NCBI GenBank assembly: GCA_015488545.1
Contig: WFNN01000052.1
Coordinates: 1-35,893, forward strand
DNA: 35,893 bases
Origin: Thermaceae bacterium
GTDB taxonomy: Bacteria; Deinococcota; Deinococci; Deinococcales; Marinithermaceae
Direction: 5' to 3'
Shown: positions 28,579 to 29,857 of the stretch, piece after piece
Position numbering within the stretch: the first letter of the stretch is position 1
Layout of the letters: each line of letters opens with the position of its first letter
Notes under the pieces: model-generated
The model's input: only the letters and a program-made list of their open reading frames with translations
What the model was told of the DNA's origin: nothing
Database searches by the model: none
Position numbers and translations under genes: made by a program

Positions 28579-28598
<20 letters not shown>

Positions 28599-29163
28599 GC
28601 GCATCACCGATGAAACCGAGGTCCGGGTCCGGTTGGATCTCGACGGCCCGCCCCGGGGCGAGGTGGCCACAGGGTTAGGTTTTCTGGATCACCTTCTAAA
28701 GAGCCTGGCTCGCCACGGGCGCATGGACCTCGAGGTTCATGCCCGGGGGGACCTCGAGGTCGACGTTCATCACCTGGTCGAGGACGTGGGCATCACCCTG
28801 GGGATGGCCCTCGACCGGGCGCTCGGGCAGCGCGCGGGCCTCGAGCGCTTCGGCGAGGCCACCGTACCCATGGACGAGACCCTGGTGCAGGCGGTCCTCG
28901 ACCTCTCGGGCCGCCCCTACCTCGCCTTCGCGCCCGAGGAACTGGCCATCGAAGGGTCCCCCGGCGGGGTTAACGCCTACCACTTCCGCGAGTTCTTGCG
29001 CGGTCTCGCCAACCACGGCAGGTTTACCCTCCACATTCGGCTTCTGGCAGGTCGCGAGGCCCACCACGTGATGGAAGCGGCCACCAAGGCGCTGGCCCGG
29101 GCCCTCTACCTGGCCACCCGGATCACCCGTGAGGACCTGCCGAGCACGAAGGAAGTGCTATGA
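28579..29163 (+). CDS. hisB: Imidazoleglycerol-phosphate dehydratase
   Basis: Removes water from imidazole-glycerol phosphate to give imidazole-acetol phosphate, the step just before HisC. The 194 residues are the size of the monofunctional enzyme. They contain the manganese-binding repeats: LGFLDHLLKSLARHG, DVHHLVEDVGITLG, and in the second half AYHFREFLRGLANHG and EAHHVMEAATKALARAL. The GTG start lies inside hisC behind GAGGAGGCAAG. The gene is separated from hisH by a 91-bp segment containing a repeat-based inverted repeat. Confidence 0.96.
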
Positions 29164-29167
29164 AGTA

Positions 29168-29243
29168 CTTGTGGCTCGTGGCTCGTGACCTGTGGGAAAA
29201 ACGATCCTCTTCAAACCACAGGCCACAGGCCACAGGCCACAAG
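29168..29243. repeat. Inverted repeat built of 7-8-nt tandem units between hisB and hisH
   Basis: The left arm is CTTGTGGCTCGTGGCTCG followed by TGACCTGTGG (29168-29195). The right arm (29216-29243) is made of CCACAGG units repeated three times, then CCACAAG. The right arm is the reverse complement of the left at 23 of 28 positions, with a 20-nt spacer, so the RNA can form a long hairpin. Short TGTGGCC/GTGGCTC units in this form look like a dispersed intergenic repeat of the REP/MITE kind. It lies within an operon, so it may affect hisH expression. No terminal transposase or target duplication is seen. Confidence 0.75.
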
Positions 29244-29254
29244 CCTTACCGCTT

Positions 29255-29857
29255 ATGAAGACCCTCGTCATCGACTACGGTTCAGGGAACGTGCGCAGCG
29301 TCGCCAAGGCACTCGAGGCCAGCGGCTTCGACGTGCGGGTGGCAAACCATCCCCGGGAGGCCAAGGGGGCGGACCTCCTGGTGCTCCCCGGCCAGGGGCA
29401 CTTTCGCCAGGTCATGGACACCTTTCGGGCCTCCGGCTTCGAGGAAACGGTGCGCGCCCACCTCGAGGCCGACCGACCCTTTCTGGGGATATGCGTCGGC
29501 CTTCAGCTCCTTTTCGAAGGCTCGGAGGAGGCCCCCGCCACCCCCGGGCTCGGCGTGGTGGCCGGCTACGTTCGCCGCTTCCGGGCGGAGAAAGTCCCCC
29601 AGATGGGCTGGAACCGGGTCTTCTTCCGGGAGGGTTCGCCCTTCGCCTCGCTCTCCGGCCGGCACTTTTACTTTGTCCATTCCTACTACGCCCCCCTGGT
29701 CGCCGACACCGCCGGAGAAGCGGAGTACGCCGGCACCCGGTACACCGCCCTCCTCCACCGCGGAAACCTGATCGCTCCTCAGTTCCATCCCGAGAAGTCC
29801 AGCCGGACCGGGCTGGCGTTCCTAGCCGCCGCAAGGACCCACTTTCTAAACCGCTAG
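29255..29857 (+). CDS. hisH: Imidazole glycerol phosphate synthase, glutaminase subunit
   Basis: Class I glutamine amidotransferase that supplies ammonia to HisF for making imidazole-glycerol phosphate. I use the ATG at 29255 (MKTLVIDYGSGNVRSV, 200 residues, normal length). The ORF track start at 29192 would translate the upstream repeat (ATGHRPQA) and is rejected. The oxyanion strand PGQGHF, the nucleophile Cys in GICVGLQLLFEGSEE, and the His-Glu pair in APQFHPEKSSRTG are present. The YGSGNVRSV start is typical of HisH. Its partner hisF is not in the window. The stop shares CTAG with the stop of the convergent kinase gene. Confidence 0.94.
   Translation: MKTLVIDYGSGNVRSVAKALEASGFDVRVANHPREAKGADLLVLPGQGHFRQVMDTFRASGFEETVRAHLEADRPFLGICVGLQLLFEGSEEAPATPGLGVVAGYVRRFRAEKVPQMGWNRVFFREGSPFASLSGRHFYFVHSYYAPLVADTAGEAEYAGTRYTALLHRGNLIAPQFHPEKSSRTGLAFLAAARTHFLNR

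Follow-up and report, generated by a model that had tools for sequence, protein, structure and literature searches.

A 78-base intercistronic hairpin of 7-base repeats between hisB and hisH in a Thermaceae genome

Heptameric repeats of bacteria are known but little explained. In Xanthomonas, intergenic heptameric repeats of the form GGGAATC, or (GGGANTN)n, occur mostly as four units per array, and 70 to 75 cases of inverted pairs were counted per genome (Rehm et al. 2015, PMC4692102). The TAACTGA repeats of Beggiatoaceae and cyanobacteria resemble the elements reported here in forming heptanucleotide tandem arrays at many intergenic loci but differ in being direct, one-armed and mostly upstream of start codons (PMC4679880). 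The tandem heptanucleotide elements of Geobacter metallireducens (PMC2700814) are likewise similar in having four heptad units and tens of copies but have the consensus GGACCGG and lie also within genes; they are not known to have paired arms. A search of the literature on intergenic heptads in Thermus and Oceanithermus found nothing specific.

The sequence analyzed here, referred to as the window, is a 35,893-nucleotide stretch of a Thermaceae genome (contig WFNN01000052.1). In it, a hairpin of 78 bases built from 7-base repeats lies between the stop codon of hisB and the ATG of hisH (Table 1), a gene pair preceded by hisC as judged by NCBIfam profiles. A repeat search reproduced the inverted element given in the preliminary description, with two 28-nt arms that are 82% complementary (23 of 28 positions) and lie 20 nt apart within the his cluster. 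Both arms consist of four units of the heptad GTRGCYY, designated class A, in opposite reading directions. The unit had been put at 7 to 8 nt; the period is exactly 7, so the smaller size stands and the larger does not. The peptide motif GHRPQA does recur in two frames as had been noticed, because of this period, and a coding meaning was rejected since the 7-nt period yields the motif as a by-product.

Table 1. Features of the hisB-hisH junction, in window positions
Feature	Position	Strand	Basis or remark
hisB, imidazoleglycerol-phosphate dehydratase	28579..29163	+	NCBIfam HisB models, E 3.8e-67; ORF list; stop TGA 29161-29163
TATGAAG left copy, possible 7-bp target duplication, includes hisB stop	29159..29165	+	Sequence; similar in two sister species, ambiguous
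5' arm, CTTGTGG CTCGTGG CTCGTGA CCTGTGG, four heptads GTRGCYY	29168..29195	+	
Loop, 20 nt, AT-rich, GAAAAACGATCCTCTTCAAA	29196..29215	+	Sister species: related loops, same site
3' arm, CCACAGG CCACAGG CCACAGG CCACAAG, inverted heptads	29216..29243	+	Period runs on to 29245
TATGAAG right copy, includes hisH ATG (29255-29257)	29254..29260	+	Sequence
hisH, imidazole glycerol phosphate synthase glutaminase subunit	29255..29857	+	TIGR01855 196.5 bits, cut-off 105.4

The RNA fold of positions 29160 to 29260 was -44.2 kcal/mol, compared with -25.1 +/- 3.6 kcal/mol for shuffles (z -5.3). When up to two mismatches were allowed, GTGGCYYGTGGCYYG matched 12 times in the window versus 2.7 expected, and every exact match was within the his element. 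In a purine/pyrimidine code, the two arms, both of period 7, were the only runs of 22 or more matches in the window at periods 5 to 11. Shuffles attained 20 to 21 pairs, and another pairing of 23 of 28 positions is present elsewhere in the window, so the pair count by itself is weak evidence. The reality of the hairpin rests on the period-7 pattern together with the repeat family. An Rfam search with the his hairpin gave no match at the gathering score; its only hits, sub-threshold microRNA look-alikes, were rejected as spurious. The terminator scan called no canonical terminator at the his copy, and T is enriched after stems family-wide.

The census of further copies was based on pattern searches and sampled stretches of genomes. 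Besides class A, the heptads were sorted into class B (GTRGTRC) and class C (GTRGGRR), and GTGGGRT was recorded as a further word. The genus of the window's genome (g1) comprised that genome (G000) and six further genomes, the sample including the public MAG WFXV01, Thermaceae bacterium S141_69; a second genus of the same family is designated g2. In the window's own genome, GTGGCYYGTGGCYYGTGG with up to two mismatches produced 41 matches versus 5 for the reversed control. These collapse to about ten hairpin loci, at nearly all of which forward heptads are followed across an AT-rich loop by reverse heptads, so the his copy is not unique. Hundreds of heptad matches in total were observed in 12 of 13 other genomes of the family, and the pattern search found none in G008, which belongs to one genus of the family, and none in most Thermus-like genomes. 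All six further g1 genomes carry heptad hairpins, as do g2 genomes, in which they often lie within longer intergenic mosaics. Period-7 purine/pyrimidine runs numbered 42, versus at most one at any other period from 4 to 12.

The usual architecture is about four heptads per arm around an AT-rich loop, at a site just 3' of a stop codon, with a median stem of 29 pairs and a median loop of 11 nt among 26 measured hairpins. The gene context of 40 g1 elements, with orientations taken from open frames and GC-by-codon-position calls, was co-directional for 25, convergent for 12 and divergent for 3. Flanks are A-rich 5' of the stem and T-rich 3' of it, and at least four T were present in the 8 nt after the stem in 9 of 28 elements compared with a background of 4.5%. 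The family consists of dispersed intergenic heptad-repeat hairpins (GTRGNNN units) directly behind stop codons in these Thermaceae, organisms that appear to be of vent origin.

Heptad arrays of other kinds were also observed. In G007 (g2; L071-L076, L081-L082), long intergenic mosaics contain class A runs, class B runs and a repeated GGGTGGGGGTTTTGAAA module, and G007 and G011 (L085:545-776, L086:510-741) each have two adjoining class A hairpins with near-identical loops, a whole-hairpin tandem duplication. In the Meiothermus-like G057 (L057:1501-1533), a class A run apparently lies inside a long open frame resembling a tRNA synthetase gene. Other heptad arrays whose variation is mostly transitions were found in Calidithermus roseus, just 3' of hisH (TCGGCTATCAGCTATCAGCTATCGACT, L164:5643), and in Chloroflexi (ACTGATGACTGACAACTGATGACTG, L223:4932). 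A scan of IMG/VR (L350-L398) produced 49 viral contig stretches with at least three GTRGCYY heptads, on contigs of 33% to 66% G+C; these arrays were mostly homogeneous and one-armed, and there was no hairpin among the 49. Phage and plasmid records searched by DNA similarity contained no relatives of the hairpin.

Unit statistics were taken from heptads flanked by two exact units. In class A (n = 108), positions 1, 2, 4 and 5 were almost fixed, and the variable positions exhibited A 48/G 59 (position 3), T 49/C 51 (position 6) and T 78/C 22 (position 7). Class B (n = 29) had the same kind of degeneracy at positions 3 and 6, and class C (n = 21) was looser. Orthologous class A hairpins differed at 30 of 810 core sites (3.7%) and at 215 of 540 variable positions (40%), 185 of these differences being transitions, and the flanks of compared sites were mostly 10 to 30% diverged.

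The differences between the two arms had been taken for paired changes arising by unit slippage. Instead, they are transitions at fixed heptad positions and are independent between arms. Arm-to-arm agreement at the variable positions was 0.53 within hairpins versus 0.57 across hairpins in permutations, this arm-match test revealing no compensatory changes, and at one pyrimidine position the arms agreed at 0.35 versus 0.50 by chance. The longest perfect run was 7.0 versus 8.5 by chance or, with one copy per locus, about 6.9 versus 8.6 at a median p of about 0.03. The 14 loci give a modest signal that perfect palindromes are, if anything, avoided. There was also no G-U bias in the sense transcript, with 50 G-U and 53 A-C mismatches, and RNA-level selection judged by such a bias was rejected, arm co-variation being likewise absent. 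With no G-U excess and independent arms, RNA selection is therefore not polishing the pairing at the variable positions.

Seven sites, each holding a class A hairpin in G000, were compared by reading the orthologous gaps in relatives, the assemblies being incomplete MAGs (G005 is 71% and G004 64% complete). At these sites, which were ascertained from class A copies and at least four of which were already known to be shared, heptad arrays occupied 28 of 29 orthologous g1 places when the early-branching G004 was left out. The sole unoccupied place resembles a deletion scar. Class A accounted for 15 of the 28 occupied places and other classes for 13, with other-word hairpins in the relatives built from GTRGTRC, GTRGGRR or GTGGGRT. 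At site C93, class A was found in G000, G001, G005 and the g2 genomes G011 and G007, and class B was found in G002, G003, G006 and the g2 genome G009. Site C133 has class A in G000, G001, G004 and G011 and class B in G003, G006 and G009; site C155 has class A in G000 and G001, class C in G002 and G006, and class B in G003. At site C201, class A was present in G000, G001 (with a heptad-sized deletion) and G005, class C in G002, and GTGGGRT in G003. Genome-wide, class B matches numbered 0 in G000, G004 and G005 and 27 to 54 in G002, G003 and G006. G005 stands beside G006 in a flank-based tree, and the class B count was 0 in the assembled part of G005 versus 31 in G006. The repeat word changes among orthologous hairpins whose location and architecture are retained, and such hairpins offer a comparative system for separating slippage, conversion, transposition and selection as makers of intergenic hairpins.

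These comparisons bear on a possible but rather unlikely explanation, namely, that the elements are functionless simple-sequence repeats in which slippage expands heptads and fold-back copying gives the second arm. The greater conservation of the core than of the flanks, the retention of sites across species and one genus boundary, the excess of convergent over divergent placement, and the fixed degenerate positions at about 50:50 argue against it. It is, however, consistent with heptamers being the favored unit of long bacterial simple repeats (PMC4679880), with the homogeneous, hairpin-free IMG/VR arrays, with the deletion at C201 in G001, and with the his site of G002, where a one-armed run of the class GTRGTRC (TGCGTGGTGCGTAGTACG...) was found.

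The his hairpin is present in G000, G001, G003 and G006 and, since it is common to four species, is not recent. Comparison of the hisB-hisH gap found it absent from G004, g2, G008 and Thermus-like genomes, and the junctions of these genomes have few-base gaps, longer unrelated spacers or overlapping hisB and hisH. Relatedness is clear among the loops of G000, G001 and G006, with which the G003 loop shares GATCCT; from this we infer that the hairpin was probably gained once and then inherited. As a separate observation, the G013 assembly contains two hisB-hisH copies (L101, L120), with identities of 68% and 67% to the HisH of the window; the bin may include two strains.

A single copy that relatives conserve at this locus had been named as the sign of a local regulatory element; conservation was found, uniqueness was not. 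That the hairpin is an attenuator or a translational control of hisH is very improbable. Its location 9 nt upstream of the hisH start, its strong fold and its conservation in four species would suit such a role, but the same repeat family is present at unrelated genes, Rfam gave no match at the gathering score, and related his operons lack the element.

The preliminary description had also proposed a mobile or amplifying repeat that entered an operon. The elements are indeed dispersed, amplified and intergenic, and the junction was entered within the genus, but the analysis yielded no evidence that they actively move. TATGAAR occurs on both sides of the his hairpin in G000, with less complete versions in G003 and G006, as might be left by a non-autonomous palindrome of the MITE or REPIN type that was mobilized by an enzyme in trans and inserted with a 7-bp duplication of TATGAAG. 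However, the right TATGAAG is simply the hisH start itself, so the pair is no more than a candidate target duplication; the left ends of elements are A-rich anyway, and no duplication was recognizable at the other compared sites. A search for the RAYT/Y1 transposase (PF01797) found no match in G000 to G012, a set of incomplete assemblies in which G007 to G010 are nevertheless 98 to 100% complete, and five control genomes were positive. Moreover, no loop or terminal sequence is common to the copies, and the word at a given site varies between species. Although the dispersed intergenic copies of defined size and the tandem hairpins of G007 and G011 would fit a mobile palindrome, we regard it as unlikely. 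In another family of the same order, G019 (L337-L349) has 11 Y1 transposase genes, 7 of them with identical scores, and 40 class A matches.

The reading that we tentatively prefer, at somewhat less than an even chance, is a REP-like family of 3'-end heptad hairpins that is inherited at fixed gene boundaries and whose words turn over by slippage or conversion. A REP/BIME-type hairpin at a cistron boundary would be tolerated or useful there, where it would damp readthrough or protect the upstream mRNA end, and folding away the gap would keep the hisB stop near the hisH start. The 3'-end placement and the A- and T-rich flanks are observed, and an effect on mRNA ends or hisH translation is putative. 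Against this reading stand the equal numbers of G-U and A-C mismatches, the arm match no better than between loci, the shortened perfect runs, the negative terminator scan at the his copy, and the choice of compared sites from class A copies. Slippage and conversion among repeats would maintain the arms, with the core kept and the degenerate positions drifting by transitions, and one whole word might occasionally give way to another heptad at a site that remains occupied. We infer this origin from the heptad-sized deletion together with published work on heptameric repeats (PMC4692102, PMC4679880). It is quite improbable that a trans-acting factor, either a template or a binding protein, writes the heptad word genome-wide. 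If this were true, a change of the factor would rewrite the hairpins at fixed boundaries in concert, replacing one word that begins with GTRG by another, and the degeneracy would be limited to purines or pyrimidines at set positions.

Among known systems, REP/BIME and REPIN elements (PMC3116915) are similar in being dispersed extragenic hairpins in which a variable spacer separates two inverted arms and in forming tandem whole copies. In contrast to them, the arms here are tandem heptads without compensatory changes, and the search of G000 to G012 found no RAYT; membership in the RAYT/REPIN group was rejected on that ground. Among published elements, the intergenic heptameric repeats of Xanthomonas (PMC4692102) come closest; they share a 7-nt unit in which some positions are fixed and others vary, the four units, and an intergenic location close to the 3' end of the preceding gene that is more often convergent than divergent. 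With several tandem 7-nt units per array at many intergenic loci, the present elements are dispersed intergenic heptameric repeats. They were not assigned to the GGGAATC family proper, which has the GGGANTN word with G-quadruplex potential; the word here is GTRGCYY, class A is not a G-quadruplex motif, and only GTRGGRR is G-rich. Unlike in Xanthomonas, nearly all g1 copies are hairpins, degeneracy is restricted to transitions, and the same site can hold different words in different species.
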